Assembly (NCBI RefSeq): GCF_006385575.1
Contig: NZ_CP041040.1
Coordinates: forward strand, 1,674,001-1,738,000
Direction: 5' to 3'
Source of the DNA: Microbacterium foliorum
GTDB taxonomy: Bacteria; Actinomycetota; Actinomycetes; Actinomycetales; Microbacteriaceae
DNA length: 64,000 bases
Positions 24,056 to 47,043 of this stretch are shown in pieces. The notes beneath the pieces are model-generated. The model saw nothing but the letters and a program-made list of their open reading frames with translations. It ran no database searches and was not told the DNA's origin. The position numbers and the translations under genes are program-made. Position 1 is the stretch's first letter, and each line of letters opens with the position of its first letter.

Positions 24056-25548
24056 TCGGTGTCGGTGCACGGATAGGCACTGTCACGGGCGTTCGCGTGG
24101 CGGGCCCGGGGCGCGAGTTCCTCGTCGACGATGAGCCGGTCGACATCTTCATCGAAGACGGACGTATCGTCGACATCGCCCCCGTGGGCGCGCTGGCGTC
24201 GCGGGGAGAGGTGCTCGACGGGGGAGGCGCCTGGGCGGTACCCGGCCTCTGGGACAACCACGTGCACACGGTGCAGTGGGCCCTCGCGACGGAGCGCGTC
24301 ACGCTCGGGAGCGCTGCGTCGGCGGCCGAGGCCGCAGCGATCATGGCTGCGGCGGCGCCCCTCCCAGACGGACGCAAGGTGGGCAGCGGCTTCCGCGACG
24401 CGATGTGGCCGGATCGCCCCACGCTCGCTCTGCTCGACAGCGTCACCGGAGAGGTGCCCACCTACCTCATCAATGCCGATGTGCACAGCACGTGGCTGAA
24501 CTCGGCGGCGCTGCGGCTCGAGGGATTCGACGGCGACGACGGGATGCTGCGCGAGGAGGAGGCGTTCGAGATCTCCCGCCGCCTCAACGCGGTGGACCCT
24601 GATCGCGGCGACATCGCGGTACGCGCGGCCGGGGAGCGCGCCGCCTCTCGCGGGGTGACCGGCCTCGTGGACTTCGACATGGCCTGGAACGCAGACGCCT
24701 GGCCGCGGCGAGTGGCTGCGGGGTTCGCCGCGCACCGAGTCGAGTTCGCGATCTATCCCTTCGACCTCGAGCGCGCGATCCGTGCCGGTCTGCGGACAGG
24801 GGAGCCCCATGACCATCCCGGGGCTCCGGACGCGGGCCGCGGGCTGATCCACGTAGGTCCTCTGAAGATCATCAGCGACGGTTCGCTCGGTACGAGGACG
24901 GCCGCGTGCTCCCACTCCTATCCGGGCGACCCGGAGAACTTCGGCGTGCTCACCGTGCCCCCGGCGGACCTCACCGAGCTGTTGACCGTCGCCACCGGCT
25001 CGGGGTTGGCAGTCGCCGTCCACGCCATCGGCGACCGCGCGGTCACGGGAGCGCTCGACGCCTTCACCGTATCGGGGGCAGTGGGAACGATCGAGCATGC
25101 CCAGCTGGTGCGGCATGCGGATCTCGCCCGCTTCGCCCGGCTCGGCGTCGTCGCGAGCGTCCAGCCGCAGCACGCTCTGGATGACCGTGATCTGGTGGGG
25201 CACCACTGGGCGCGTCAGACCTCCATCGGCTACCCGCTCGGGGCGCTGCGCGACGCCGGAGTCGAGCTGCGCTTCGGCTCGGATGCGCCCGTTGCTCCGC
25301 TGGATCCGTGGCAGGGCATCTCCGCAGCAGTCACTCGCACGGACGACGAGCGGGAGCCGTGGCATCCGGAGGAACGGCTCACGCGGGAGCAGGCGCTGCA
25401 GGCGAGCGTGCGCACGTCGTTGCGACCGGGCGAGCCCGCCGATATCGCACTCTGCGGACTCGATCCGCTGGTCGCCTCGGGTAGCGATCTGCGGGGAATG
25501 CCCATCGTGGCCACGCTCCTGTCCGGGCGTCTCACACACGGCGCCTGA
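24052..25548 (+). CDS. Amidohydrolase family protein (YtcJ-like)
   Basis: A 498-residue metal-dependent hydrolase. The N-terminal beta-sandwich leads to the metal motif DNHVHTV, with later ligands in HAIGDRAV and the catalytic Asp in FGSDAPV. YtcJ-like members act on N-acyl or cyclic amide substrates that are mostly unidentified. GTG 24052 overlaps the PaiB-like stop; a reading from 23671 would lie inside that gene. Confidence 0.9.
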   Translation: MIGVGARIGTVTGVRVAGPGREFLVDDEPVDIFIEDGRIVDIAPVGALASRGEVLDGGGAWAVPGLWDNHVHTVQWALATERVTLGSAASAAEAAAIMAAAAPLPDGRKVGSGFRDAMWPDRPTLALLDSVTGEVPTYLINADVHSTWLNSAALRLEGFDGDDGMLREEEAFEISRRLNAVDPDRGDIAVRAAGERAASRGVTGLVDFDMAWNADAWPRRVAAGFAAHRVEFAIYPFDLERAIRAGLRTGEPHDHPGAPDAGRGLIHVGPLKIISDGSLGTRTAACSHSYPGDPENFGVLTVPPADLTELLTVATGSGLAVAVHAIGDRAVTGALDAFTVSGAVGTIEHAQLVRHADLARFARLGVVASVQPQHALDDRDLVGHHWARQTSIGYPLGALRDAGVELRFGSDAPVAPLDPWQGISAAVTRTDDEREPWHPEERLTREQALQASVRTSLRPGEPADIALCGLDPLVASGSDLRGMPIVATLLSGRLTHGA

Positions 25549-25560
25549 CGACGGCATGCA

Positions 25561-25598
25561 CGACGAAGGGCACCGGAGAATCCCGGTGCCCTTCGTCG
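25561..25598. terminator. Bidirectional terminator between amidohydrolase and dps
   Basis: A perfect 16-bp stem (CGACGAAGGGCACCGG and complement) with loop AGAATC sits between two convergent genes, 12 nt after one stop and 15 nt after the other. Confidence 0.85.
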
Positions 25599-25613
25599 TG
25601 AGTGGTGTCGTGG

Positions 25614-26099
25614 TTACGCAGCGATGTGCGACACGAGGAACCAGCGGTCCTTCTCGAGTCCGCGCATGATCTCGATCGCGACGTCCTGGCTCGTGAGGTC
25701 GACCTCGTCGAGTCCGTCGATCGCAGCCTTCACGTCGATGAGGATCGCGTCGATGTCGGAGATGACAGCGCGCACGAGCTCGTCGGACTGGGTGAAGCCG
25801 GCGGGAACCGAGGTCGCGCTGCCCTTTGCAGCCACGGCGCTGATGCGTGCGTCGATCGGGAGACCGAGGGCGACGATCCGCTCGGCGGCCGTGTCTGCGA
25901 AGTCACCGGCGTGCGCGACGATCGTGTCGAGGAGCTCGTGGACGCCGACGAAGTTGGCGCCGCGCACGTGCCAGTGCGCCTGCTTGCCATCGATCGTCAG
26001 TGCCTGGAGACCGAGCACGACGGGGGAGAGGAACTGAGCCGCTGCAGCTGCCACAGTCGGGTCGCTGGCGGTGGTGGAAACGGTCTGTACCTTGCTCAT
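25614..26099 (-). CDS. dps: Dps-type ferritin-like DNA protection protein
   Basis: A 161-residue mini-ferritin that stores iron and protects DNA in starved or stressed cells. All the intersubunit ferroxidase ligands can be placed: H42, H54, D58, D69 and E73, with spacing identical to E. coli Dps. The N-terminal tail is short and not lysine-rich, so direct DNA binding is uncertain. ATG 26099 has a GGAGGAG-like site upstream. Confidence 0.96.
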   Translation of the reverse strand: MSKVQTVSTTASDPTVAAAAAQFLSPVVLGLQALTIDGKQAHWHVRGANFVGVHELLDTIVAHAGDFADTAAERIVALGLPIDARISAVAAKGSATSVPAGFTQSDELVRAVISDIDAILIDVKAAIDGLDEVDLTSQDVAIEIMRGLEKDRWFLVSHIAA

Positions 26100-26227
26100 C
26101 TTGACTCCTCCGGAGTTGTCTCTTCGTGCCTGCTGATGACAACGCTACTCGTCTGAAAACATTCCGCAAGCAAGCGAAGGCTCGGCTTAGTGCCCCGGAA
26201 TCATGCGGAAATCCGGCCTTGAGAGGA

Positions 26228-26233
26228 TAGTCT
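26228..26233 (+). promoter_or_regulatory. -10 hexamer TAGTCT, leaderless promoter
   Basis: TAGTCT, then CACCTC, then ATG 26240. A TTCCGCA/TGCGGAA inverted pair (26162-26168 and 26204-26210) lies just upstream in the dps/carbonic anhydrase intergenic region. Confidence 0.45.
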
Positions 26234-26239
26234 CACCTC

Positions 26240-26776
26240 ATGAGCATCGCAGTCGGAGCCTCTGTCCTCGCGCTCCCGGGAAAGACCCCGTCGGTGGCTG
26301 AAGGCGCCTTCATCGCCGAGGGTGCTCGCATCGTCGGTGATGTCTCACTGGCCGAGGGGGCGAGCGTCTGGTACAACGCCGTACTCCGGGGCGATTCGGA
26401 GTCCATCGTCATCGGTCCAGGCAGCAACGTGCAGGACAACGTCTCGGTCCACGTCGATGCGGCTCATCCCGTCATCGTGGGCGCGAAGGTGTCGATCGGC
26501 CACAACGCTGTCGTGCACGGATGCACGATCGGGGACGGCTCGCTCATCGGCATGGGGGCTGTCGTCCTCAGTGGCGCCGTCATCGGCGCCGGCTGCCTGA
26601 TCGCCGGCGGAGCAGTGGTGCTCGGGGGAACCGAGGTGCCCGATGGCTCGCTGGTGGCCGGGGTCCCGGCGAAGGTACGCCGATCGCTCAGCGACGACGA
26701 GCGTGCGGATCTGATCGCGAACGCCGAGATCTATCTGAGGCACCTCGAGACGCACGCCGCCGCGACACCGATCTGA
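26240..26776 (+). CDS. Gamma carbonic anhydrase family protein
   Basis: A 178-residue left-handed beta-helix built of hexapeptide repeats. The three zinc histidines are present: H71 in NVSVHVD, H88 and H93 in SIGHNAVVHG. Family members hydrate CO2 or act as related hexapeptide transferases; the histidine set supports metal binding, while the activity is not proven. Confidence 0.93.
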   Translation: MSIAVGASVLALPGKTPSVAEGAFIAEGARIVGDVSLAEGASVWYNAVLRGDSESIVIGPGSNVQDNVSVHVDAAHPVIVGAKVSIGHNAVVHGCTIGDGSLIGMGAVVLSGAVIGAGCLIAGGAVVLGGTEVPDGSLVAGVPAKVRRSLSDDERADLIANAEIYLRHLETHAAATPI

Positions 26777-26805
26777 CCGGTTTGGCCCGATAGGCTTGTC
26801 ATCAC

Positions 26806-26879
26806 GGGGCGGTGGCCAAGCTGGTTAAGGCAGTGGGCTCATAACCCAACGATCGTCGGTTCAAGTCCGACCCGCCCTA
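26806..26879 (+). tRNA. tRNA-Met (CAT anticodon)
   Basis: Acceptor GGGGCGG pairs with CCGCCCT (G-T at position 1-72). The anticodon loop is CTCATAA and the T arm GTCGGTTCAAGTCCGAC is fully paired. The discriminator is A; the 3' CCA is not encoded. A TAGGCT hexamer lies at 26790-26795. An elongator Met tRNA is most likely, though a lysidine-modified Ile tRNA also has CAT. Its 3' half is repeated at 29310, so it looks like an integration target. Confidence 0.92.
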
Positions 26880-26882
26880 CTC
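26837..26882 (+). repeat. Left direct repeat: 3' half of tRNA-Met
   Basis: 46 nt from the anticodon loop to two bases past the tRNA end. It matches 29310-29355 at 42 of 46 positions; all four differences are in the T stem. Confidence 0.85.
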
Positions 26883-27594
26883 GATACTCTTCACGATCAG
26901 CGTGATTCCACGGGCTCAGGGAGGGTTCACACATTCGAGCGTTCTCCATCCGGTAGCAATCTGACCGTCATATGGCCAGCAGCTGCGGGCGGGACGTCCT
27001 CGTAGAAGGAAGTGCTGAGCGGGGCCCGCCTCACCGCGCATGTGGAGAGCGTGACCATTACTCTTCCCCTTGGCGCTCCGTCGAGGTCTCGTGGCGCTGT
27101 GAGCTCTCCTCTGTCGGGGCCCGCCGAGTTCATCGAGATTGAATGACGCAGTTCACGCGCGGGATGCACGGTATTGGGGCTTGCTCGGTGTGCCTGCGCG
27201 AGCTCAGTGCTGACTTGTCCGACCCGGCAGGTGAACTCCCCCGCTGCTCGAGGGTGGTCATGAACGAGCACATCGCGGTCTGCGAGCGGTCCGACGTCAC
27301 TGATGAGGAGACAGGTCGGCTGGAAAACCCCGGCACGCTACCCTCACCCCGCACCACCACGTCATGGCGACTTGGTGAGCCGGGCGGGCGGCTGAGCTCT
27401 CCAGCGAACGTGCGATGTACATGAGCGAGTTCGGCGCTGGCCTGGGAGCGCCAGAAGGTCCCGCTATGTTCTTTGCTCAAGGTGGAGCCCGCTAGTCGTC
27501 CGTTCTTGATGCAGTTGCCGTCCAAGTACGCAACGGCTGGCTTTGATCACGAATGCGCTCCGCGAGTGCATGGAACCGATCTGAGCCTGCAGAT
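26883..27594. other. About 700 bp without a convincing gene
   Basis: Several open frames of 60-130 codons exist on both strands, but none has good codon character, a recognisable domain and a ribosome-binding site together. The best small candidate is listed separately (26927-27058). The stretch is probably degenerate island DNA. Confidence 0.5.
26927..27058 (-). CDS. Possible 43-residue protein
   Basis: An ATG at 27058 follows a purine-rich AAGGGGAAGAG site at suitable spacing and opens 43 codons ending in a TVRLLPDGERSNV-like tail. No homology is recognised. It could equally be chance within decayed DNA. Confidence 0.2.
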   Translation of the reverse strand: MVTLSTCAVRRAPLSTSFYEDVPPAAAGHMTVRLLPDGERSNV

Positions 27595-28296
27595 TCAAGG
27601 TGCTTCGATAAGCGCGGGAACATCTTCGCCAGGCACCAAGTCGTCAACGCCGACGCCTTGAGCAACTCCCGACTCGTAGGGGAAGACGAGCACGGGTTCT
27701 TCGCTCGAGGTCGAGCGCTGGTTAGGCTCATCACCGGCGCGAAACTCGAACGCAAATCCCCCCGGATGGGTGACAGTGTAGACGGTCGTTCCCTCAGGTG
27801 CGCCACTCTTCAGCGACATTCCCACGAGCCCGTCTGGGGAAGTGATGTCGTTGACGTAGACCACCACCGGGGTTCCTACACCTACGTTTGTTTCGTATTC
27901 GAAGGCCTCGAGGTTGCCCGGTAGCGCGACGTAGATCGTATCGCTTCTCGGGTCCGTCAATTCGCCGGCAACTGTTCGACTGACATCGATTTTCATGAGA
28001 ACGGGCGAGTAGGTGGGAGTGCCTTCTGGTGCGTTTGTGTCGAGTTCCCCCTGCGTGAATCCGGCTACTGTACCGATGACTCCCGCTTCCGAGAACTCAG
28101 TCATCTCGTCAACCTCCGCGACAGGTTCAACGTCAAAACCAGATACGTTCCAGTTCCCAATCAGGTCGTAAGCGGTCGGCACTGAAGCCGACGTCTCCAC
28201 AGCTTGGGGTGAGGGCGATGTGCAACCTGCCAAAAGTATGCCGCAGAGTGCAACTCCGGACGCAGCGAAAGTACTCTTGATCATTGTTTTCGACAT
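27595..28296 (-). CDS. Putative lipoprotein of the accessory region
   Basis: A 233-residue predicted lipoprotein: N-terminal MSKTMIKSTF, hydrophobic core, lipobox LLAGC with Cys25, then a Ser/Pro/Thr linker. The body includes GNWNVSGFDVEPV and several beta-rich segments (TPVVVYVNDITSPDG; TVYTVTHPGGFAFEF). ATG 28296 has a GGGAG site. It lies 32 bp downstream of the disrupted zinc-protease gene on the same strand, so the two probably formed an operon. Lower G+C and different codon use than neighbours suggest transfer. I do not recognise the family. Confidence 0.75.
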   Translation of the reverse strand: MSKTMIKSTFAASGVALCGILLAGCTSPSPQAVETSASVPTAYDLIGNWNVSGFDVEPVAEVDEMTEFSEAGVIGTVAGFTQGELDTNAPEGTPTYSPVLMKIDVSRTVAGELTDPRSDTIYVALPGNLEAFEYETNVGVGTPVVVYVNDITSPDGLVGMSLKSGAPEGTTVYTVTHPGGFAFEFRAGDEPNQRSTSSEEPVLVFPYESGVAQGVGVDDLVPGEDVPALIEAP

Positions 28297-28328
28297 TGGG
28301 TCTCCCTGAAGAATTGTTCTAAATCGAC

Positions 28329-28958
28329 TTAGCCGAAAACGGCGGTGTACACCCGGTTGATCGATGCGATCTCATCGGAGGAATATGTTGATCTGGTCGA
28401 TGAACCACAGGAGGCGGCGATAGCCCCTGGTGCGCTATAGTGGCGCAGGCCCACGAAGTGGCCAATTTCATGGCAAAGGGTCTTGCGAAATTGGCTCCCG
28501 GTTCCGATGAGACTTGAGTGGATGATCATCGAGCCTTGATCGCAGGTTCCGCTTCCCCAATAGTGCATCGGCTTGGTGCATACTGCTGCTCCTCGGATTG
28601 TCGTTCCGCGGAGGTTGTATTCCGGAGAACCGTCAAGATATCCGCCGATATCCGTTTGCGTACCGCAAGTGGGTGCGTAGGTATCGACCAAGACGGTCAC
28701 ATCGTCCAGGTATGCCATCGCGGCGCCAAATTGGTTGCCTACGTAGGCAGGCCACCCATATGGCGTACACTAATCGAAGCTCTTGTCATCCCCGGCGCAG
28801 ATCGCGTCGAGACCACTTTGGAAGTGGTAGCACTGCCCTCCAACCGACGCGGCCGTTGCAGGCACCGCAGTTATGTGGCCCCCAAAGGCTATCGCGAATA
28901 TCGTCAGAAGAGCCGATGTGATTACCCTCAGTTTTCGAACGCGGCGGTTCGAGGCAAT
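28329..28958 (-). pseudogene. Secreted matrixin-like zinc metalloprotease, disrupted
   Basis: Reading the minus strand from 28958, one frame gives a basic N-terminus (SNRRVRKLR), a hydrophobic signal core (VITSALLTIFAIAFGGHI), an Ala-rich cleavage region (AVPATAAS), and a mature part with CYHFQSGLDAICAGDD. A TAG at 28770-28772 interrupts this frame. After it, the frame continues with CTPYGWPAYVGNQFGAAMAYLDD and reaches the zinc site HEIGHFVGLRH (HExxHxxGxxH) and a normal end. The first codon after the AAGGAA site is ATT, not ATG. A lost start and an internal stop make this a decayed exported protease; the 129-codon part from 28718 alone would lack an export signal. Confidence 0.7.
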
Positions 28959-29195
28959 GTCTTTCCTTCGCTAGAGGGAGGCGTAACGCGACATGATTGT
29001 CGGGCCGACGATAGCCCGTTTCGGGACGAACGACCAGAGCGTGACGATATATAGCACGGCCTCATTCTCGCGATCGCTCTCCTGACCGGGGTCGGACCGC
29101 ATAACACTTCTGCGCCAGCTTGCCCGAGTGTTCTGCTAGGCACGATGAAGCCGATGACGGAAGCCCGCGCTGGGAACCCTGCCTGTCTCAAGATC
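28959..29195. other. Intergenic accessory DNA
   Basis: No supported gene is seen. The stretch would contain the promoter of the protease-lipoprotein unit on the minus strand. Confidence 0.4.
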
Positions 29196-29309
29196 TGAGT
29201 CGCCCTGAGTTTCGTTCCTATTGGGCGTTGTGGGAAACGGGTGTTCTCAAGGCTATGTCGAGGCCAGCGCAGTAGTTTGCCTCGAACTCGGCGGGGGTGC
29301 GCATGTCGA
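29196..29309 (-). mobile_element. 3' end of an IS3-type insertion sequence, truncated
   Basis: On the minus strand, 30 codons read LDMRTPAEFEANYCAG... and end in TAG at 29218-29220. RTPAEFEANY is typical of the C-terminus of IS3-family OrfB transposases. A possible terminal inverted repeat (TGAGTCGCCCTGAGTTT, 29196-29212) follows the stop. Upstream of the transposase codons the sequence changes abruptly into the tRNA fragment at 29310, so the rest of the element is lost. Confidence 0.55.
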
Positions 29310-29355
29310 GCTCATAACCCAACGATCGCGGGTTCAAGTCCCGCCCGCCCTACTC
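29310..29355 (+). repeat. Right direct repeat: truncated 3' half of tRNA-Met
   Basis: It starts at the anticodon loop (GCTCATAACCC) and ends 2 nt past the discriminator. The T stem is GCGGG/CCCGC instead of GTCGG/CCGAC in the intact gene; the changes compensate each other. No 5' half is present, so this is not a functional tRNA. Confidence 0.85.
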
Positions 29356-29960
29356 CCGTTCGTCGATTCGCCGAACTCAGATCTCGAATGCGGTCGGTTC
29401 AGAGATGCTGTCGCGAGTATGACCCCCGCCGTGATGCCGCCGATTCCGCCGAAGACCATGTCGCCGATCGTGTCCTGATACGTGACGAAGATCTCGTCGC
29501 TGAGGTAGGCCCAGCCCAGCCACTCGACCATCTCCCAGATCGCGCTGAGCGCGAGGGCCAAGAGCGGTGCGAGGACGAGGGGCGTTCGCGGCTTGGCATT
29601 GCGATCACGAGTCATCACGACGACGTCAGCCCTGGTGAGGATCAGCGCGGTGACGATGGCCAGAACACCCGTGCACACCAGGTGCAGGAGCAGATCCCAT
29701 CCGGGGACCGTCCGATACAGGTCGAACACGTTGCTCCACGCGGCCACGAGCACGGTCGAGCACACCACCAGGTCGAACGACCCGCGCAGGCCCAGGACTC
29801 GTGGCAGCATCAGGGCCGGAAGAGCGAGCGCGGCGATGCCCGCATCCGTCGGGGTGAGCCAGATCAGCGCGAAGCCGACCCCGATGATCCCCAGAGCTCG
29901 CAGAATGTCGGCGGACCACTCGGTGAGGGTGCGGGGAGGTCGCAGAAAGTCTTCTTTCAC
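29334..29960 (-). CDS. Multi-pass membrane protein (YjdF/DUF2238-like)
   Basis: A 208-residue membrane protein with about six hydrophobic segments. The conserved Asp/Glu pattern of the YjdF-like family is visible: VPGWDLLLHLVCTG, ALSAIWEMVEWLGWAY, then YQDTIGDMVFGGIGG. GTG 29960 overlaps the stop of the EEP gene by 4 nt, fixing the start. The last eight or so codons and the TGA lie within the tRNA-derived repeat, so the present C-terminus was set by the integration event. Function unknown. Confidence 0.8.
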   Translation of the reverse strand: MKEDFLRPPRTLTEWSADILRALGIIGVGFALIWLTPTDAGIAALALPALMLPRVLGLRGSFDLVVCSTVLVAAWSNVFDLYRTVPGWDLLLHLVCTGVLAIVTALILTRADVVVMTRDRNAKPRTPLVLAPLLALALSAIWEMVEWLGWAYLSDEIFVTYQDTIGDMVFGGIGGITAGVILATASLNRPHSRSEFGESTNGSRAGGT

Positions 29961-30790
29961 GGTGTCTTCCCTTCCAGACTTACGAGCGCCTGCACTGCCA
30001 GGTGGTCCGAGGGTCTGATCCCGCCGAAGACGTGTGCGTTGATGGCGGCGGCGCGCACCTTCACGCCCCGGCTGACGAGCATCCAATCGACGCGCCGCCC
30101 TGTGAGCCGCGGTCGTCGATACCCGTTGAGCGTGCTCCACAGCGGAGTCAGTCGATCCTCTGCGGCGATCCAGGAATCGGTGAGCTGCGCGTGCGAGAGA
30201 AGCAGGCGTACGGCGCCTGAGCGGGGACCCGCGTTGAGATCGCCCATCACGATGGCCGGAAGCCCTCGCTTGCGGATCACGGCGGCGATCACCCCTGCCG
30301 ATCGCCGCCGAGAACGCGACGACAGGTGGTCGAGATGGGCGTTGATGACGAGGAACCGGACGCCCGTCGCCCTGTCGGAGAACTCCGCCGTCACGAGGAT
30401 GCGGGGGATGAGGTTGCCCCAGGACCGACTGCCCGGTTCGTCGGGACGCGCTGAGAGGGCCCGCTGCTCCCACCCATCCAGCTCCAGGCGTTCGGCGTCA
30501 AAGACGAGCGGAGTGCTCTCGCCCGCGTACGCGTGACCTCTTCCTCTGCCGACGAACCGATACGTGGGACCGAGCGCTTCGGCGACGACGCGCGTCGCAC
30601 GGGGCAGCACCTCCTGCAGCCCGAGGATCGTCGGACGCTCCGAGTCGAGCATCTCGGCGACTGCCGGGGCGCGCACACTCCAGCGATCGCGCTTCGGACG
30701 CAAGGGCCCCTCCATGGCGCGGCGGATGTTGAAGGACATCACGTGCACGTCCGGCGTGACCGCCGGGCCGATCAACGGAGGGACGGTCAT
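29957..30790 (-). CDS. Endonuclease/exonuclease/phosphatase (EEP) family protein
   Basis: A 277-residue EEP-fold hydrolase. Key motifs are VMSFNIRRA, the metal-binding Glu in ILGLQEVLP, VINAHLDHLSSRSR, VMGDLNAGP and the final SDHLAVQA. It cleaves phosphodiester or phosphomonoester bonds of an unknown substrate, perhaps lipid- or sugar-linked given its partners. ATG 30790 overlaps the glycosyltransferase stop (ATGA), so the longer reading is rejected. Confidence 0.9.
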   Translation of the reverse strand: MTVPPLIGPAVTPDVHVMSFNIRRAMEGPLRPKRDRWSVRAPAVAEMLDSERPTILGLQEVLPRATRVVAEALGPTYRFVGRGRGHAYAGESTPLVFDAERLELDGWEQRALSARPDEPGSRSWGNLIPRILVTAEFSDRATGVRFLVINAHLDHLSSRSRRRSAGVIAAVIRKRGLPAIVMGDLNAGPRSGAVRLLLSHAQLTDSWIAAEDRLTPLWSTLNGYRRPRLTGRRVDWMLVSRGVKVRAAAINAHVFGGIRPSDHLAVQALVSLEGKTP

Positions 30791-31629
30791 CGAGTCCTCC
30801 GCGATGCGGGGCCGCGCCGACGACGCCGGACCGCGAGGCGTGCCCACCGGACAGGGGGAAAGTCGCGCGGCCAGTGCACGAGCACGCTGCGGAAACCTCT
30901 GTGCACTCGTCGGCCGAACTGCCCTGCGGTGAGTGGTCTCATCGACATCCCCATCGACTCGCCGGGGAGCCGCGCGATGCGATGGTTCTCACCGAGGTGG
31001 AAGGCGAGGTCGAGGTCGTCATGGATGTGAGGATCGCCGCGATGGACGTCCGCACGCACCGCATGCCATGCCTCCCGGCGGAACGCGAGATTGGAGCCGA
31101 AGAGCGGTCGGTGACCGAGCGTGACACTCAAGAGGCTCGTGTAGGCCCCGAGATAGAGTCGAGCGAGCGGGAGGCGGAGCGCCGCTGGCCCGTCGGTGAA
31201 CCGCGCGTGTCCGGTCACGGCCCCCGTGCGCTCGTCCTCTCCGAAGGTGGTGACGACGGCGGAGATCCAGTCGGGATCCGGTTCGCAGTCCGCGTCGAGT
31301 CTGAGGATCAGATCACCGCCCGCGGCGTCGTATCCGGTGGACGCTGCAGCGGAGATGCCCGGCTCGATGCAGGTGAGCACGCGCGCGCCCGATGCTCGCG
31401 CCACGGATGCCGACGCGTCGGAGGAGTCGTTGTCGACCACGATGATCTCGTCGGCTGGCGACTCCTGTGCGTGGAGGGCCCGCAGGCAGCGTGCCAGCAG
31501 CACGGCGTCATCCTTGACAGGGATGACCACGGAGGTCGTGGGGGAGCGGACGGATGGCTTCCGCGACTGGACGCTCCCGGCCCTCTCGGACTCGTGCTCT
31601 TCGGTGCGCTCTGTCATCGGAGCGATCAT
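30787..31629 (-). CDS. Glycosyltransferase family 2
   Basis: A GT-A fold enzyme of about 280 residues. TSVVIPVKDDAVLLARCL and IIVVDNDSSDAS form the nucleotide-sugar site, LRLDADCEPDPDW carries the DxD motif, and GSNLAFRREAW and DDLDLAFHLGE the acceptor side. No clear membrane segments. Start is uncertain between ATG 31629 and ATG 31617. It is the first gene of a coupled trio (glycosyltransferase, EEP hydrolase, membrane protein) that may build or edit a cell-envelope glycan (inference). Confidence 0.88.
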   Translation of the reverse strand: MIAPMTERTEEHESERAGSVQSRKPSVRSPTTSVVIPVKDDAVLLARCLRALHAQESPADEIIVVDNDSSDASASVARASGARVLTCIEPGISAAASTGYDAAGGDLILRLDADCEPDPDWISAVVTTFGEDERTGAVTGHARFTDGPAALRLPLARLYLGAYTSLLSVTLGHRPLFGSNLAFRREAWHAVRADVHRGDPHIHDDLDLAFHLGENHRIARLPGESMGMSMRPLTAGQFGRRVHRGFRSVLVHWPRDFPPVRWARLAVRRRRRGPASRRTR

Positions 31630-31697
31630 CTCATCGATCGATGAGGCCGGCGAAGGACTTGACACAGGTGGAGCACACCGTGAGCACCGCGCCCGGC

Positions 31698-32030
31698 TCA
31701 GCGACCGTCTGCAACCGGGACGTCGGGAGAAGGCTCGATCAGTTCGTCGACGAGCGTGATCCCGCCGCTCGAGTTGGCGGAGTGCGCGAGATCCTCGATC
31801 CATCGACGACTGAGCTCCGGTGCCTCGCTCTCGTCGAAGACGAACCGCAGGGGGATCGACGGATGCAGCCAGACCGTCGAGCGGCCTTCGGGATCACCCT
31901 CCGGGTGCTTCCACGTCAGTGTGAAGCTCTCGTTGCGACGCAGCTTCGTCGCAACGACGACCTTGAGGTGCGCGAGCGCGCGATCGTCGATATGGATCGG
32001 CTCCGAGGCGCCGTAATAGAGAGAACCCAT
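31698..32030 (-). CDS. Small Microbacteriaceae-type protein (DUF7882-like)
   Basis: A 110-residue protein starting MGSLYYGASEPIHIDDR, with VVVATKLRRNESFTLTWKH and PLRFVFDESEAPELSRRW. This is a small actinobacterial family often labelled ATP-dependent DNA ligase by transfer of a wrong name; no ligase motif is visible. ATG 32030 follows TATATT by 7 nt. Function unknown. Confidence 0.75.
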   Translation of the reverse strand: MGSLYYGASEPIHIDDRALAHLKVVVATKLRRNESFTLTWKHPEGDPEGRSTVWLHPSIPLRFVFDESEAPELSRRWIEDLAHSANSSGGITLVDELIEPSPDVPVADGR

Positions 32031-32037
32031 ATCTCGG

Positions 32038-32043
32038 AATATA
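32038..32043 (-). promoter_or_regulatory. -10 hexamer TATATT, leaderless promoter
   Basis: TATATT on the minus strand, 7-nt spacer, then ATG at 32030. Confidence 0.45.
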
Positions 32044-32116
32044 TTCGTCCGAGGGCGAGCCTTCGCACCGGCGGCCCGCGGCACGCGCTGGGCACGAACA
32101 ATCTGTTCGCAAAGTG

Positions 32117-33055
32117 TCATCGGCGGTGCTTCGCGGCTGTCACCGAAGGAAGCACGCCGAAGCTGTCGCGATACGCGGCAGCGAACCGGGAAGGGTGAGA
32201 GAAACCCCATCGACGGGCCACCGCGGTGACCGTCGAGTAAGTGCCGGACTGCAGGTCGCGATGCGCGCCGTCCAGTCGCGCCCGTCGCAGCGACTCTGCC
32301 GGTGTCGTGTCGAGCGCCCGTCGGAAGGCGTACTGCAGTCCCCGTGTCGAGATGTGGACGGCTGCGGCGACGTCATCGACGGTGATCGGCCGGTGTGAGT
32401 TATCGGCGATGTAATCGAGGGCCCGGCGCACGGTGGCCGGAGCCGCTGTCGTCTGCGCCGGGAGATGGCGCTCGAGACGGCTCGTGGTCGCGAAGGCTGC
32501 GAGCGTCGTCGCCGCCGCATGTCGAGCCAACTCGCTGTCCAGGAGTTCGTGATCGTCCGTGCTGTCGTCGAAGGCTGCAGCGCTCGACTCGAGATAGGCG
32601 AACATGCGATCCCATGCTGCGGCCGCATGTGCGGAGCGAGGCGAGAGGTCCGCGACGCGGATGGCGAGGTCGTCGTCACCGCTGATCTGCCGGGCGAGGC
32701 GCGAGAGGGTGTCGCGCTCGAATACGAGTGCCGTGACTCGGGCACCCGCGTCCCACCGCGCATGCACTCGTGGCCCGTCGGAGATCCAGGGGCGGCTCGC
32801 ATCGAGATGGCCGCGGTCGGAGAAGACCCGTGCATCCGGACCGTCCACTCGGCAGACCAGAATCTGGTCATGCGGTTCCGCTGTCGAGCGGACCTCGGCC
32901 GCCAGGTCGTAGCGGACCAGGCTCACACCCCCGAGATCCGCAGAGTGCCAATCGAAGAGGAACCGCTCGGGGTCGACGTCGTGCAGGACTGCGGACGGGA
33001 CGAACTGCTTCCAGGTGCTCTCGACCCGGGAGACATCACTGGTTCGGAACCGCAT
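32117..33055 (-). CDS. AraC family transcriptional regulator
   Basis: A 312-residue regulator. The C-terminal double helix-turn-helix is clear: RPITVDDVAAAVHISTRGLQYAFRRALDTTP, then the signature around VARRWGFSHPSRFAAAYRDSFG. The N-terminal 200 residues resemble the AraC-binding-like ligand domain (TAEPHDQILVCRV). The ATG 33055 start overlaps the exonuclease 3' end by 20 nt. Target genes and ligand unknown. Confidence 0.9.
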   Translation of the reverse strand: MRFRTSDVSRVESTWKQFVPSAVLHDVDPERFLFDWHSADLGGVSLVRYDLAAEVRSTAEPHDQILVCRVDGPDARVFSDRGHLDASRPWISDGPRVHARWDAGARVTALVFERDTLSRLARQISGDDDLAIRVADLSPRSAHAAAAWDRMFAYLESSAAAFDDSTDDHELLDSELARHAAATTLAAFATTSRLERHLPAQTTAAPATVRRALDYIADNSHRPITVDDVAAAVHISTRGLQYAFRRALDTTPAESLRRARLDGAHRDLQSGTYSTVTAVARRWGFSHPSRFAAAYRDSFGVLPSVTAAKHRR

Positions 33056-33788
33056 CGCGAGGCACCTCCCCGAGAGTGCGGTGGGCGCGCACCGGCCAGG
33101 TGCCGTCGAGGCGCTCCTCCGGCTCGAGGCGACCGATCCGGATGAAGTACTCCGTGAGGCTCGCCGCCTGCGAACGGGCCCACCCGATCTGCCGCGTATG
33201 CAGCTCCTCGAGGGTCTCGGGAAGCACGAACTGACGCGCCAGCGCCTGCGCGACCCGGCCTGCGGCCACCGCATCGGCGGCGGCCTCGTGCGCATCCTCG
33301 AGTCTCACGGCGTAGAGAGCAGCGACCACTTCGAGCGTGCGCTTGCCCGGCCGGTACCGGTCGTACGCCTTGTCGATCACGAGAGGGTCGATGATCGGCG
33401 AGGGATTCTCGAGCGGCGTTATTCCGTGGCGATGCGCCTCATGCGCCAGGAGGGAGAAGTCGTACGCCGCGTTGTACGCGACGATCGGAACCCCTTGCGA
33501 GAGCAGCGATCGCAGGGCAGCGGTCACCTCTTCGACCACTTCGGCGCCCGGACGGCCGTGCCGCCGGGCATGCTCGGTGGTGACTCCATGCACGGCCGTG
33601 GCGCCCTCGGGGATCGGCACGCCAGGATCCGACAACCAGTCCCTGGCTGCGATCTCGCGCCCATCTGCATCGAGGAGCCCCACATGCGCGGTGACGACCC
33701 GGTCCTTCTCCACATCGACACCCGTGGTCTCGAGGTCGAACACGCCGACGCGAGTGATCCAGTGCGGGAGCGAGGGGGCCGGGGGCAT
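33036..33788 (-). CDS. DnaQ-like 3'-5' exonuclease
   Basis: A 250-residue DEDDh exonuclease: D18 and E20 in VFDLETTGVD, the middle Asp in YNAAYDFSLLAHEA, and HEAAADAVAAGRVA. It resembles the epsilon-type exonuclease domain proteins of actinobacteria, acting on DNA or RNA ends. ATG 33788 is 6 nt after a TACGGT hexamer, supporting this start over the upstream ATG at 33842. Confidence 0.9.
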   Translation of the reverse strand: MPPAPSLPHWITRVGVFDLETTGVDVEKDRVVTAHVGLLDADGREIAARDWLSDPGVPIPEGATAVHGVTTEHARRHGRPGAEVVEEVTAALRSLLSQGVPIVAYNAAYDFSLLAHEAHRHGITPLENPSPIIDPLVIDKAYDRYRPGKRTLEVVAALYAVRLEDAHEAAADAVAAGRVAQALARQFVLPETLEELHTRQIGWARSQAASLTEYFIRIGRLEPEERLDGTWPVRAHRTLGEVPRDAVPNQ

Positions 33789-33794
33789 GGTTTC

Positions 33795-33800
33795 ACCGTA
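33795..33800 (-). promoter_or_regulatory. -10 hexamer TACGGT, leaderless promoter
   Basis: TACGGT on the minus strand, then GAAACC, then ATG at 33788. Confidence 0.4.
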
Positions 33801-33856
33801 GATCCGGGCTCCGACATCCGCGCGGAGGCGCACGGAGAGCATGCATGCGTCGACTC

Positions 33857-33862
33857 TAGACT
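33857..33862 (+). promoter_or_regulatory. -10 hexamer TAGACT, leaderless promoter
   Basis: TAGACT, then TGGTCC, then ATG 33869; divergent from the exonuclease promoter. Confidence 0.5.
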
Positions 33863-33868
33863 TGGTCC

Positions 33869-34768
33869 ATGACCGTCCCCTCTCCCTACGCAGACCGCCT
33901 CAGCCGACTGCCCGTCGCGCGTCACGAGGTCGAGGTCCGCGGCGGAACGACCGTGTTCTGGGAGTACGGACCTGTCGACGCCGACGTGACGGTGGTCGCC
34001 GTGCACGGGTTCCGGGGCGAGCACCATGGTCTCGAGCCCGTCCTCGCCTTCCTTCCCGAGGTCCGGGTGATCTCTCCCGATCTCCCCGGTTTCGGCGAGA
34101 CGGCCCCCGTCGCGGGCCGCACGTACGATCTCGACGAGTACGTCGCCTGGCTGAAGGAGTTCGCGGCGACGGCGGCTCCCGGAGCGGTGATCCTCGGACA
34201 CTCCTTCGGATCGATCGTCGCCTCGGCCGCGGTCGCAGCGGGTCTCGAGACGCCGCGGCTGATCCTGATCAATCCGATCGGGGCGCCCGCACTCGAGGGC
34301 CCCAAGGGCATCATGACGCGCCTCGCTGTCCTGTACTACTCGCTCGGGGCGCGCCTGCCCGAGCGAGCGGGCACCGCGCTCCTGCGCAACCGTCTGATCG
34401 TCAGGGTCATGAGCATCACGATGGCCAAGACGTCGGACCCGCAGCTGCGACGGTTCATCCACGATCAGCACGACACCTACTTCTCGCGTTTCGCGGACCG
34501 CGACGTCCTCCGGGATGCGTTCGTGACGAGCGTGTCGCATGACGTGAGCGAGTTCGCCTCGTCGATCTCGACGCCCACGCTGCTCATCGCCGCCCAGCGG
34601 GACGACATCACCCCCATCGAGGTCGAGCGACAGCTCGCGACCCGCTTCGACGACGCCACGCTGGTCGAGATCGCCGAAGTCGGCCACCTGATCCACTACG
34701 AGACGCCGGCCGAGGCGGCCGGCGCCGTTCGTCGATTCCTCAGGATTCCCGTCGCGCGAGGCCGATGA
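33869..34768 (+). CDS. Alpha/beta hydrolase
   Basis: A 299-residue alpha/beta-hydrolase. The oxyanion region AVHGFRGEHHG, the nucleophile elbow GHSFGS (Ser112) and the catalytic His in EVGHLIHYETP are present, as is the strand-7 Asp region QRDDITPIE. Substrate not predictable. The 3' end overlaps that of the convergent AsnC gene by 29 nt. Confidence 0.92.
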   Translation: MTVPSPYADRLSRLPVARHEVEVRGGTTVFWEYGPVDADVTVVAVHGFRGEHHGLEPVLAFLPEVRVISPDLPGFGETAPVAGRTYDLDEYVAWLKEFAATAAPGAVILGHSFGSIVASAAVAAGLETPRLILINPIGAPALEGPKGIMTRLAVLYYSLGARLPERAGTALLRNRLIVRVMSITMAKTSDPQLRRFIHDQHDTYFSRFADRDVLRDAFVTSVSHDVSEFASSISTPTLLIAAQRDDITPIEVERQLATRFDDATLVEIAEVGHLIHYETPAEAAGAVRRFLRIPVARGR

Positions 34769-35213
34769 GGCCGGCGACACGGAACGGGATCACCTCGCCC
34801 ATCGCGAGAGAGGTCTCGGTGCGTTCGACACCTTCGATCGACAGGATGCGCGCGTCAGTGTCGAAGAGGTGCCTGGCGTCCCTGCACGCGACGCGCGCGA
34901 GCAGGTCGATCGACCCGCTGAGTCCGTGCGCCTGCACGACCTCGGGGATCCGGGCCAGCTCGTTGATGATGCGTGGGAGCTCTGTCTGACGCACCCCGAT
35001 GCTCACGAACGCCTGAAGCGGGAACCCGAGCACATCGGTGGAGAACGATCGTTCGTACGACTGGAAGATCCCGGTCTGCTCGAGCCTCGCCATGCGTGCC
35101 TGAATGGTGTTGCGGGACAGCCCGAGATTCTCCGCGAGCGCGACGATCGTGACCCGGGGGTCATCGGCGAGGGCGGCGAGAAGTTCCAGATCAATGCGGT
35201 CAAGTCCGGCCAT
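34740..35213 (-). CDS. Lrp/AsnC family transcriptional regulator
   Basis: A 157-residue regulator with an N-terminal helix-turn-helix (LDRIDLELLAALADDPRVTIVALAENLGLSRNTIQARM shortened: LGLSRNTIQARM is the recognition helix) and a C-terminal RAM ligand domain (QAHGLSGSIDLLARVACRD). It sits divergent to the branched-chain dehydrogenase operon, as BkdR-type regulators do, so control by branched-chain amino acids is likely. ATG 35213 is 8 nt after TATCGT. Confidence 0.93.
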   Translation of the reverse strand: MAGLDRIDLELLAALADDPRVTIVALAENLGLSRNTIQARMARLEQTGIFQSYERSFSTDVLGFPLQAFVSIGVRQTELPRIINELARIPEVVQAHGLSGSIDLLARVACRDARHLFDTDARILSIEGVERTETSLAMGEVIPFRVAGLIGLARRES

Positions 35214-35215
35214 AG

Positions 35216-35255
35216 TGCCAAACGATAGCAGGGTGGGGGACGCCCAGATTTGGCA
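35216..35255. promoter_or_regulatory. Dyad TGCCAAA / TTTGGCA, candidate AsnC-type operator
   Basis: TGCCAAA (35216-35222) and its exact inverse TTTGGCA (35249-35255) are 33 bp apart, about three helical turns. One half covers the space between the -10 and start of the asnC-type gene. Such spaced half-sites fit octameric Lrp/AsnC proteins. Confidence 0.5.
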
Positions 35256-35259
35256 ACAT

Positions 35260-35286
35260 GCTCAAGCCGATCGCGGTTGCTTGAGC
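35260..35286. promoter_or_regulatory. Dyad GCTCAAGC / GCTTGAGC upstream of the bkd operon
   Basis: An exact 8-bp inverted repeat with an 11-nt centre, about 95 bp before bkdA. It could be a second regulator site or a hairpin. Confidence 0.4.
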
Positions 35287-35381
35287 GAGGTGATGAGCGG
35301 ACGTACGCTGAAGTCAACCGGCGATGAGGCCGGGGCCGAGCGTAGAACCCGTGACGACGGCCATGAATGAGGAGGACGATG

Positions 35382-36497
35382 ATGTCACCGCAGATCACCC
35401 CGATCGCCGATACGGCACAGGATCTCGAACTCGCCGAGCGCGTCCTCTCACCGGAGGGCGAGCGGATCTCGAACCCGCTGCTCGATTCCTACGTCGCTGA
35501 CGTCGACGCAGCACAGCTGCGGGCGCTGCATCGCGACATGGTCATCCTCCGTCGCATCGACGCGGAGGGCGTCGCTCTCCAGCGTCAGGGACAGCTCGGA
35601 CTCTGGGCGCCGTGCCAGGGTCAGGAGGCGACCCAGATCGGCACAGCCAGGGCGCTCGCTTCGCAGGACTATGTCTTCCCGAGCTATCGGGAGACGGGGG
35701 TCATCTATGCGCGCGGCGCGAAGCCCGGCGACTTCGTCCGCATGTGGCGCGGCGAGGAGGGCGCGGGTCACGACTCCGCAGCGCTCCGGGTGGCTCCGCT
35801 GCAGATCATCATCGGAGCGCAGACGCTCCATGCCGTCGGCTACGCGCTCGGCATCCGTCATGAAGGCGCGGACGAAGTCGCGGTCACCTACTTCGGCGAT
35901 GGCGCCACGAGCCAGGGCGACGTCAACGAGGCGATGATCTTCGCCTCCTCGTATCAGGCCCCGGTCGTCTTCGTCTGCCAGAACAACCACTGGGCGATCT
36001 CGGAGCCCGTGTCGGTGCAGTCGAAGTATCCGATCGCCGGGCGGGCGCCCGGCTTCGGCATCCCGAGCCTGCGGGTCGATGGCAACGACGTTCTCGCGTG
36101 CACGGCTGCGATGCGCTGGGCACTCGCGCACGCCCGAGCGGGAAAGGGCCCCGCCTACCTCGAAGCGGTCACGTACCGGATGGGCCCGCACACGACAGCC
36201 GACGATCCGACTCGCTACCGCAGGGACGACGAGCTCGAGGCATGGCGCCGTCGCGACCCCATCGCGCGCCTGGAAGCGCATCTGCTTTCGATCGGCGAGC
36301 TGAGTGACGAGCAGATCGCCGAGACTCAGAAGGCCGCCGACGTCGCGGCACGGGAGATGCGCGCCGAGTGCCTGAGCATGGTGACCCGCCCGCCGCTCGC
36401 CGTCTTCGACGGCGTGTATGCCGAGCCGCATGCCGGGCTCGACCGCCAGCGCGAAGAGTACGCCGCGTACCTCGCCTCCTTCGACGGGGAGGTGTGA
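35382..36497 (+). CDS. bkdA: Branched-chain 2-oxoacid dehydrogenase E1 alpha
   Basis: The 371-residue E1 alpha subunit decarboxylates branched 2-oxoacids on thiamine diphosphate. The diphosphate/Mg motif YFGDGATSQGDVNEAM ... CQNNHW and the substrate region FPSYRETGVIYARG are clear. ATG 35382 (second of a tandem ATGATG) is 6 nt from AGGAGG. Its stop overlaps the bkdB start. The next genes encode E1 beta and E2. Confidence 0.94.
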   Translation: MSPQITPIADTAQDLELAERVLSPEGERISNPLLDSYVADVDAAQLRALHRDMVILRRIDAEGVALQRQGQLGLWAPCQGQEATQIGTARALASQDYVFPSYRETGVIYARGAKPGDFVRMWRGEEGAGHDSAALRVAPLQIIIGAQTLHAVGYALGIRHEGADEVAVTYFGDGATSQGDVNEAMIFASSYQAPVVFVCQNNHWAISEPVSVQSKYPIAGRAPGFGIPSLRVDGNDVLACTAAMRWALAHARAGKGPAYLEAVTYRMGPHTTADDPTRYRRDDELEAWRRRDPIARLEAHLLSIGELSDEQIAETQKAADVAAREMRAECLSMVTRPPLAVFDGVYAEPHAGLDRQREEYAAYLASFDGEV

Positions 36498-36499
36498 TG

Positions 36500-37510
36500 A
36501 TGACGCAGATCACTCTCGGGAAGGCGCTCGGCGCCGGCCTCCGCCAGGCGATGCGCGACGACGACAAGGTCGTGCTGCTGGGCGAGGACATCGGCAGGCT
36601 GGGCGGCGTCTTCCGCATCACGGACGGACTCCTCGACGAGTTCGGTGCGAAGCGCGTGATCGACACGCCTCTCGCAGAGTCCGGCATCGTCGGAATGGCT
36701 GTCGGGTTGGCGTTCCGTGGCTACCGGCCCGTCGTCGAGATCCAGTTCGACGGGTTCGTGTACCCCGCGTTCGATCAGATCGTCGCCCAGGTCGCCAAGC
36801 TGCACTACCGCACGCAGGGTCGGGTACGGATGCCGATCACGATCCGCATTCCGTGGGCCGGCGGAATCGGCGCGGCCGAGCACCACTCGGAATCGCCCGA
36901 GGCGTACTTCGTGCACACGGCGGGACTCCGCGTGATCGCCGTGTCGAATCCCGAGGACGCGTACCGGAGTCTGCGTCAGGCCATCGCGTCGGACGACCCG
37001 GTGATCTTCTTCGAGCCGAAGCGGCTCTACCACCAGAAGGGCGAGGTCGACCTCGACGCCCCGCTGGCGGATGCTGCGCCCATGGGACTCGCACGTGTCG
37101 TACGAGCAGGCGACGACGCGACGCTCATCACCTACGGGGCGATGGTCACGACCGCGTTGCAGGCGGCCGAGGCCGCGGAGGACGAAGGCACCTCGCTGGA
37201 GGTCATCGACCTGCGCTCGCTGTCGCCCGTCGACTACGACACGGTCGCGACGTCGGTCCGCAAGACCGGACGGGTCGTCGTCGCCCACGAGGCGTCACGC
37301 GAGGCGGGCATGGCCGCCGAGGTGATCGCGAGCGTCACGGAGCGATGCTTCGAATACCTCGAGTCCGCTCCGCTGCGGGTGACCGGGCACGACGTTCCCT
37401 ATCCGCCGGCGAAGCTCGAGAAGTACCACCTCCCCGACCTCGACCGCCTGCTGGATGCCGTCGATCGCGTCCTCGACCGTCCGAACAGCCTGACGGGAGC
37501 AGACGCATGA
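36500..37510 (+). CDS. bkdB: Branched-chain 2-oxoacid dehydrogenase E1 beta
   Basis: The 336-residue E1 beta subunit completes the E1 heterotetramer. Landmarks: VVLLGEDIGRLGGVFRIT, FDGFVYPAFDQIVAQ, RIPWAGGIGAAEHHSES and the C-terminal SAPLRVTGHDVPYP. Two ATGs are possible (36497 overlapping the bkdA stop, or 36500); the second is better spaced from GGAGG. Overlap with bkdC is ATGA. Confidence 0.94.
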   Translation: MTQITLGKALGAGLRQAMRDDDKVVLLGEDIGRLGGVFRITDGLLDEFGAKRVIDTPLAESGIVGMAVGLAFRGYRPVVEIQFDGFVYPAFDQIVAQVAKLHYRTQGRVRMPITIRIPWAGGIGAAEHHSESPEAYFVHTAGLRVIAVSNPEDAYRSLRQAIASDDPVIFFEPKRLYHQKGEVDLDAPLADAAPMGLARVVRAGDDATLITYGAMVTTALQAAEAAEDEGTSLEVIDLRSLSPVDYDTVATSVRKTGRVVVAHEASREAGMAAEVIASVTERCFEYLESAPLRVTGHDVPYPPAKLEKYHLPDLDRLLDAVDRVLDRPNSLTGADA

Positions 37511-38871
37511 ACGCGGAGTTCCGGCTGCCGGACCTCGGGGAGGGACTGACAGAGGCAGAGGTCGTCCAGTGGCTCGTCGCACCCGGCGACACGGTCACGC
37601 TGAACCAGACTCTGGCGGAGGTCGAAACCGCCAAGGCGATCGTCGAGCTGCCTTCTCCCTACGAAGGCGTGGTCGCCGCCCTGCACGCCGAGGCGGGTCA
37701 GACGATCGCGGTCGGGGCGCCCCTGATCGAGTTCGACGTGGAGGGGGCCGATGGGTCGCCCGCGGCGGACTCGGCCGGAGTCGATGGGCAGGAGAAGGCG
37801 CAGCCCAACCTCGTGGGATACGGGGCCGCCCCCGCGGCATCCGGGCGGCCCGCGCGGCGTGCCAGACGTGCGGCCGGAGCCAGAGCTTCGACCGACACGG
37901 CTGTGCTCGAGGCGGCACCGCATGACGCCTCGCCGACGGCGAGCGTCGAGATCGTCGTCGAACGGCCCCGGTCCACGCCGCCGGTGCGCGCGTACGCCAA
38001 GCGTCTCGGCGTCGATCTCACCCTGGTGGCCGCGTCGGTCGGAGATCGAGTGATCACGCGCGTCGACATCGACGACTACGTCGCTCGCACCGGCGTCACC
38101 GTCGAGCAGGCCGACTCCGAACCGCGACGCGCTGCGGTTCCGGACGACGCGACGGGGCTCCGGGAGTACTCGCGGGAGACCCGCATCCCCATCCGCGGGG
38201 TACGCAAGCACACCGCCGCGGCGATGGTCGAGAGTGCGTTCACAGCGCCGCACGTGACGGTCTTCCACACGGTCGATGTGACGGCGACCATGGACCTTCT
38301 CGAGTCGCTGCGCGGCGACCGGTCGCTGTCCGAACACCGGATCGGTCCGCTCGCCGTCGTGGCGAAGGCGGTGTGTCTCGCACTGACCCGCGCCCCCGGC
38401 CTGAACGCGCGGTGGGACGATTCCGCCGGGGAGATCGTGCAGTTCGGGTACGTCGATCTCGGAATCGCTGCAGCGACCGAACGGGGACTCATCGTGCCCC
38501 ACATCCGCGACGCCGAGTCTCTGAGCCTCGTTCAGCTCGCGGATGCCCTGAAGTCTCTCGCCGCCACGGCACGTGAAGGCAGGACGTCTCCGGTGGAGCT
38601 GTCGGGTGGCACGTTCTCGATCTCGAACATCGGGGTGTTCGGGGTCGATGCGGGCACACCCATCCTCCCGCCTGGGCAATCGGGGATACTCGCGGTCGGT
38701 GCCGTCCGTCGTCGTCCGTGGGAGCACCGCGGCGAGATCGCCCTTCGCCACGTGATGACGCTCAGCCTCTCGTTCGACCATCGGATCGTCGACGGGGCGG
38801 AGGGCGCGAAATTCCTCAGGGACGTGGCCGACGTGCTGGAGGAACCAGGGCGGGCGATGCTCCTCAGGTAA
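37507..38871 (+). CDS. bkdC: Branched-chain 2-oxoacid dehydrogenase E2 (dihydrolipoyl acyltransferase)
   Basis: The 454-residue E2 core has one lipoyl domain (K43 in ETAKAIVELP), a Pro/Ala-rich linker, a peripheral subunit-binding domain (TPPVRAYAKRLGVDL) and the catalytic domain with FDHRIVDG (H425, D429). It passes the acyl group to CoA. Starts by ATGA overlap with bkdB; its stop overlaps the convergent tetR gene by 8 nt. E3 must come from elsewhere. Confidence 0.95.
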   Translation: MNAEFRLPDLGEGLTEAEVVQWLVAPGDTVTLNQTLAEVETAKAIVELPSPYEGVVAALHAEAGQTIAVGAPLIEFDVEGADGSPAADSAGVDGQEKAQPNLVGYGAAPAASGRPARRARRAAGARASTDTAVLEAAPHDASPTASVEIVVERPRSTPPVRAYAKRLGVDLTLVAASVGDRVITRVDIDDYVARTGVTVEQADSEPRRAAVPDDATGLREYSRETRIPIRGVRKHTAAAMVESAFTAPHVTVFHTVDVTATMDLLESLRGDRSLSEHRIGPLAVVAKAVCLALTRAPGLNARWDDSAGEIVQFGYVDLGIAAATERGLIVPHIRDAESLSLVQLADALKSLAATAREGRTSPVELSGGTFSISNIGVFGVDAGTPILPPGQSGILAVGAVRRRPWEHRGEIALRHVMTLSLSFDHRIVDGAEGAKFLRDVADVLEEPGRAMLLR

Positions 38872-39457: not shown

Positions 39458-39487
39458 CTCAGTTAATCCTCGCTAACCTGATGTGAT

Positions 39488-39507
39488 CGGTTAGTGAACA
39501 CTAACCG
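39488..39507. promoter_or_regulatory. TetR operator palindrome
   Basis: CGGTTAGTG-AA-CACTAACCG: exact 9-bp inverted arms between tetR and the carboxylase operon. A looser GTTAA...CTAAC pair lies at about 39461-39475. Confidence 0.75.
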
Positions 39508-39569
39508 AGAAAGCATCCAGTGCGCCAGAGCGATGACGCCGGCGCCGTGTGGTCGAGGAGGACGTCACG

Positions 39570-41123: not shown

Positions 41124-41128
41124 CCGCC

Positions 41129-43048: not shown

Positions 43049-43050
43049 GC

Positions 43051-44199: not shown

Positions 44200-44209
44200 C
44201 GTGGCAGGC

Positions 44210-45498: not shown

Positions 45499-45524
45499 TC
45501 AGAGCAGCTGAGCGGGCGCGCCGG

Positions 45525-46948: not shown

Positions 46949-47043
46949 AGGACCTCCCCGAGCGAGTCTACGACGTGCAGCGTGGCCGATGCTCCGCCGC
47001 CGACCGTGGAGGCGGCCTCGCGGGCGATGGCAGACTGGGGCTC

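Follow-up and report, generated by a model that had tools for sequence, protein, structure and literature searches.

A probable remnant of a mobile element at a tRNA-Met gene of Microbacterium foliorum

In the genome of Microbacterium foliorum, a single contig of 3.62 Mb (G000 in our set of 366 genomes), one tRNA-Met gene is followed by about 2.4 kb of lower-G+C DNA and then by a second copy of its own 3' half. This raises the question of whether a mobile element was once inserted here and, if so, which of the two tRNA halves it brought. In this study, the locus was investigated within a window of 64,000 nucleotides (contig NZ_CP041040.1, positions 1,674,001 to 1,738,000), to which all positions refer unless another locus is named.

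The repeated tRNA half and the segment it encloses

The tRNA-Met gene was placed at 26806-26880 by ARAGORN and at 26806-26879 on the plus strand by Rfam. The original prediction, that its 3' half is repeated in the same orientation, was borne out by the comparison of 26837-26882 with 29310-29355, which are identical at 42 of 46 bases on the same strand; no other ungapped stretch of 46 bases in the window, whichever strand is read, matches at more than 27. A whole-genome search with 26806-26890 listed two places and no third (E 3.6e-12 for the second). The repeat spans tRNA positions 32 to 77, and the displaced half sits 2,473 bp downstream of the functional one. The segment between them, 2,427 bp long, has a G+C content of 58.8% as compared with 67.1% in the window, as had been predicted from its composition; values as low or lower were observed in only 0.24% of the window's stretches of this length, with the minimum starting at 26824. 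The features of the locus are as follows.

26240-26776, plus strand: left flank, a gamma carbonic anhydrase-like gene (under the NCBIfam cut-off), adjoining the tRNA in most of the loci examined
26806-26880, plus strand: functional tRNA-Met (CAT), its 5' part from the host and its 3' half presumably derived from the element, with T-stem GTCGG/CCGAC
26837-26882, plus strand: repeat copy 1, attL-like, from the anticodon loop to just beyond the tRNA 3' end
26883-29309, no strand: inserted segment, missing from six empty sites
26883-27594, no strand: gene-poor stretch without detected integrase similarity, where the element of genome G193 has helix-turn-helix and integrase genes
27595-28296, minus strand: intact lipoprotein ORF of 233 aa, with no Pfam family and no NCBIfam family over the cut-off; homologues in G072, G308 and, weakly, G241
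28332-28769, minus strand: catalytic part of a putative small metzincin (matrixin-like) protease, by Pfam match and motif
28773-28970, minus strand: N-terminal, signal-peptide-like part of the protease in the same frame, split off by an in-frame TAG at 28770-28772; a pseudogene by reading
29196-29313, minus strand: tail of an insertion sequence (transposase C-terminus at 29221-29313 plus end), IS3 type by its relatives, cut at the displaced tRNA half with the junction inside a shared GCTC
29310-29355, plus strand: repeat copy 2, attR-like, the displaced tRNA-Met 3' half by repeat alignment, with T-stem GCGGG/CCCGC
29334-29960, minus strand: right flank, a DUF2238-like membrane protein gene (under the cut-off) that directly follows an intact tRNA in six relatives; its frame ends in the displaced tRNA half

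The four mismatches of the repeat are not scattered; they amount to two adjacent T-stem base pairs altered on both strands, and each of the two resulting T-stems is fully paired. The GCTC at 29310-29313 is common to the tRNA and the adjoining transposase fragment, which blurs the left edge of the copy, so that this edge, fixed by the transposase junction, need not equal the true core edge and may stem from a later deletion. It was also observed that the membrane protein frame ends within tRNA sequence on the opposite strand (29334-29360) in the window as well as in three relatives lacking the insert (G282, G051 and G179).

The segment had been described as gene-poor, and it is indeed sparse in genes, though not empty. 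Read on the minus strand, it presents the signal-peptide-like piece, the in-frame TAG, the metzincin catalytic piece and then the intact lipoprotein ORF. The catalytic piece is classed as a putative matrixin-like metzincin from its Peptidase_M10 match (26.4 bits against a Pfam cut-off of 24) together with HEIGHFVGLRH, which fits the metzincin zinc motif, HExxHxxGxxH. The ORF of 233 aa carries LAGC, presumably a lipobox, and its single-sequence fold prediction was useless (mean pLDDT 33). The same pair of genes, in the same order and strand, is found in G072 (59% and 69% identity), G308 and G241, with the lipoproteins of the latter two being distant and that of G241 only weakly similar; the protease profile search behind this comparison covered 139 of the 366 genomes, among which it detected G308 and G241 in addition to the window. 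The G072 pair is located 1.5 kb past the other tRNA-Met with no displaced tRNA half beside it, and no tRNA was detected within the 20 kb examined around the pairs of G308 and G241; the pair is thus not tied to tRNA-Met elements. Elsewhere the cargo was not found, neither in two scans of genome_contigs with short peptide patterns nor by tblastn of the lipoprotein against plasmids and of the protease against plasmids and phages. In all four loci the metzincin gene is directly followed by the lipoprotein gene (27595-28970 here; L050 9150-10424, L121 8959-10463 and L122 9343-10794), the metzincin being small and secreted and the lipoprotein belonging to no known Pfam family. A protease-inhibitor or protease-anchor pair is possible, judging from these sequences.

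As for the transposase tail, a longer relative in G224 (L007), itself interrupted, consists of two frames with HTH_Tnp_1, HTH_21 and rve, and another longer one in G322 (L051) matches rve_2 and rve_3, a domain layout that we take to be of the IS3 type. Apart from one 26-bp match, no other copy of the tail exists in the window genome.

Empty sites and other inserts at tRNA-Met genes

The original prediction expected that related strains without the insertion would carry an intact tRNA-Met straight before the membrane protein gene, and this arrangement was found in six other genomes (G282, G051, G179, G242, G165 and G050). For this, 29310-30847 was compared with the 366 genomes, and in these six the match sets in with the first base of the tRNA half and continues into the membrane gene; the intact tRNA directly before it was seen at the locus in five of the six and deduced from the match coordinates for G242. 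The other listed matches of this query begin past the tRNA half or cover the tRNA half alone, and in G070 the tRNA and the membrane gene behind it are 1.9 kb apart. The nearest relative, G282, aligns in two pieces, 24807-26882 (95.8%) and 29310-47287 (92.8%), which overlap in G282 by exactly the 46-bp repeat, and on this alignment it presents itself as a textbook empty site. Neither of the states that would speak against an insertion was observed: the six empty sites carry a single tRNA-Met each and no tandem pair, and among the matches listed from the 366 genomes none covers the 2.4-kb interior at length, a comparison in which two candidates per genome were scored and a long match would have ranked first. 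The listed interior matches are of about 120 bp at the transposase tail, in several genomes, and in one case, G072, of 316 bp at the protease. Together, the direct repeat and the empty sites uphold the predicted footprint of integration at a tRNA gene.

The prediction that no integrase remains was likewise sustained by several searches. Reading-frame pieces of 26881-29320 compared by tblastn with related loci gave no significant sign of an integrase or excisionase remnant; nine window pieces returned no integrase PHROG; and an HMM built from five integrases of the tRNA-Met clade did not match the six-frame pieces of 26881-29309 at E 5. A possible carrier was not recognized, as exact patterns of the tRNA half in both alleles occur nowhere in viral_contigs (0 matches), and in the phage collection as in the plasmid collection the tRNA half has a single match, of 84%, with no recognizable attP.

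Displaced halves at this tRNA-Met are rare. The half-tRNA pattern occurs twice per genome in only three of the 366 genomes (G000, G193 and G297), unchanged when one mismatch and one more free base are allowed; this count is a lower bound because a fourth case, G147, with two mismatches to the pattern, was missed by it and came to light through its integrase-like frame. Larger inserts at the same tRNA, for which a search had been proposed, are represented by G193, with an insert of 4.5 kb, and G147, with one of 7.0 kb. The G193 element shares the tRNA, the layout and both T-stem alleles, functional GTCGG and displaced GCGGG, with the window segment; it has, however, no gene in common with it, harboring a helix-turn-helix gene, a tyrosine integrase close behind the tRNA (Phage_integrase, E 2.9e-16) and, by reading, transporter-like and acetyltransferase-like genes, whereas the window segment has no integrase. 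The G297 insert (1.4 kb) resembles the window in its tRNA-Met, its displaced half and its lack of significant integrase similarity, and differs in its DNA, in its functional GCGGG allele and in an imperfectly paired displaced half. In G147 (L075), an open frame of about 689 residues was noted at about 160-2226 after the tRNA (reoriented), aligning to the G193 integrase over its first 120 residues only; it is perhaps a fused or different recombinase. In G125, 2.77 kb separate the tRNA from its flank, which three relatives lacking the insert share at 94.6-96.2% identity, and a displaced half was looked for in this parallel case and not found. Its insert (L029 2076-4845) contains, by reading, a large surface-protein-like ORF, and 234 bp of it match a part of the G193 element at 88% identity. 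In both G125 and G193 the match to the tRNA extends beyond the gene, to window positions 26913 and 26930 respectively (92% and 87% overall), and the segment alone has no blastn match to either at E 0.01; the likeness in the 45 bp after the tRNA could reflect an element end that the segment has in common with the G125 and G193 inserts, or the last part of a former host gene.

With reference to the integrase of G193, six of its seven best matches (itself, then proteins of 45-50% identity) adjoin a tRNA-Met, those of G193 and G325 at the window-type tRNA-Met and those of G361, G110, G048 and G340 at a tRNA-Met beside tRNA-Thr; for the second G110 integrase (45%), no tRNA was detected within the 16 kb examined. 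Among 14 more distant integrase loci, the neighbour is tRNA-Gln at seven and tRNA-Pro at four, and the other three have no adjoining tRNA. Integrases of Arthrobacter and Gordonia phages are 25-29% identical to that of G193 (best 20 of 30). A repeat of the same kind, 3.4 kb long, lies at the second tRNA-Met of G048, and in the DNA examined of the G325, G361, G110 and G340 loci a displaced half was not found. In all five repeats compared (window, G193, G147, G297 and G048), identity starts at tRNA positions 32-39, around the anticodon loop, and stops at the tRNA end or just beyond.

The Islander work deals with displaced tRNA fragments, whose crossover sites it assigns either to an anticodon-loop type or to a T-stem/acceptor type (PMC4383910), and according to a review the anticodon loop with its stem corresponds to the overlap, 7 bp long, and the core of the canonical site (PMC8371274). 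The shared segment, running from the anticodon loop to the tRNA 3' end, is consistent with an anticodon-type (A) attachment site. The window segment agrees with the islands so described (PMC4383910) in its intact tRNA, the same-strand 3' fragment with its edge at the anticodon loop, the foreign DNA between and the empty site in relatives; it differs in being only 2.4 kb long and in having no integrase gene inside, by which it would fail the Islander integrase filter. Among the titles found in the literature on tRNA-gene integration, on islands at tRNA-Met in Microbacterium and on displaced, chimeric or altered tRNAs, most of it from outside the subscription journals, none concerned this locus.

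T-stem alleles across the genus set

The half-tRNA pattern was found at 96 places in 93 genomes, which, counted by eye, comprise 76 of GCGGG/CCCGC, 19 of GTCGG/CCGAC and one of GTAGG/CCCGC, the last being the displaced copy of G297. A further form, GTGGG/CCCAC with ACCCGAC, is present in many more genomes among the matches listed, and it can be observed that the GTCGG, GCGGG and GTGGG alleles of tRNA-Met, each fully paired, coexist in the genus set. From 40 loci picked to be rich in GTCGG, a tree was built of the carbonic anhydrase gene beside the tRNA; it comprises 35 of them, five having been dropped because the gene was not at that place. GTCGG and GCGGG alternate repeatedly on this tree, where the GTCGG label requires 7 changes, at least five of them forced by well supported branches, as compared with 12.0 in shuffles, and the GTCGG pair of G000 and G282 is nested with starred support within the GCGGG relatives G051 and G179. 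A tree of one gene in a recombining genus lends weak support to allele switching. The displaced half probably carries the older allele of the clade, and the simplest reading of these sequences would be that GTCGG arrived with elements.

Two observations complicate this picture: G282 has the GTCGG allele yet an empty site, and in most GTCGG genomes no displaced half was seen. Since precise excision after a crossover in the anticodon loop should restore GCGGG, an extra event is needed in G282, whether a loss running through the repeat's 3' end or an exchange by homologous recombination. Compared in blocks of 250 columns, G000 and G282 are 95.6-98.8% identical over the 1.25 kb in front of the tRNA and 83-95% identical behind it. 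This drop would be consistent with a tract of recombination that stops close to the tRNA, or simply with stronger conservation of a gene.

Origin of the segment and meaning of the displaced half

The segment is, very probably, the remnant of a mobile element that was placed into the tRNA-Met gene by a tyrosine integrase and then decayed. The only mobility gene inside it is the transposase tail, and the type of recombinase is thus inferred from the relatives. Under this explanation, a tyrosine integrase would have inserted the element at tRNA-Met, most likely with strand exchange in the anticodon loop; the element's own tRNA 3' half would have completed the functional gene, with the host's original half shifted downstream to its present place. 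The integration genes would have been lost afterwards, an insertion sequence reduced to the tail now lying against the displaced half, and a stop introduced into the protease gene, though the order of these steps is conjectural. We call the segment a remnant because of the TAG in the protease gene and the transposase tail abutting the displaced half.

The polarity may also have been the reverse, with a crossover 3' of the T-stem, a functional tRNA that is wholly the host's (GTCGG) and an element-borne GCGGG half. The empty GTCGG site of the closest relative, G282, speaks for this reversal, the paired T-stems of the window rule out no more than a crossover falling between the two strands of the stem, and G193 does not decide the matter, its GTCGG relative G119 and GCGGG relative G101 being about equally close in the flank. 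We nevertheless consider it fairly unlikely, as it leaves without explanation both the start of the repeat near the anticodon loop in five elements and the occurrence of the surrounding clade's allele in the window's displaced half. A different question is whether an integrase was ever there, since the original prediction also allowed for a small passenger element moved by another integrase. Such a passenger would have consisted of att sites and cargo, at no time with an integrase of its own, and would have been mobilised in trans from elsewhere in the cell. Its small size and att-like sequences at both ends make the segment agree with this, as do the eight Phage_integrase matches of the window genome and the inserts of 1.4 kb (G297) and 2.8 kb (G125) at the same tRNA, which have no significant integrase similarity. 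Against it, decay is favoured by the truncated transposase tail, which breaks off at the repeat, and by the interruption of the protease gene, no integrase related to that of G193 was found in the genome at E 1e-20, and G125 has no detected displaced half, so that we regard a passenger as unlikely. That no site-specific integration took place, and that a tandem tRNA duplication was later split by an insertion sequence or a segment duplicated by chance, is very improbable. The transposase tail does meet the half copy exactly, within the shared 4 bp; however, the six empty sites have one tRNA and no tandem pair, the duplicated part is the very part repeated in four other inserts, and a recent duplicate would be expected to share the T-stem allele.

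Integration at a tRNA gene is of a well-known kind, and the decayed element proposed here is an integrase-less remnant of an ordinary event that has left an unusually readable trace. Within this genus set, tRNA-Met genes are targets of one integrase clade. We tentatively suggest, with somewhat less than even confidence, that such elements serve as vectors for tRNA alleles, with every integration swapping the functional 3' half and stranding the old one, so that in this genus the T-stem flips repeatedly among fixed alleles, each of them fully paired, and an allele outlives the element that brought it. If this is true, the displaced half would preserve, as a fossil, the tRNA that the host had before. 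The four diagnostic bases let one ask which half an element brought, and they also probe whether past integrations explain changes in tRNAs for which mutation would need four coordinated substitutions.
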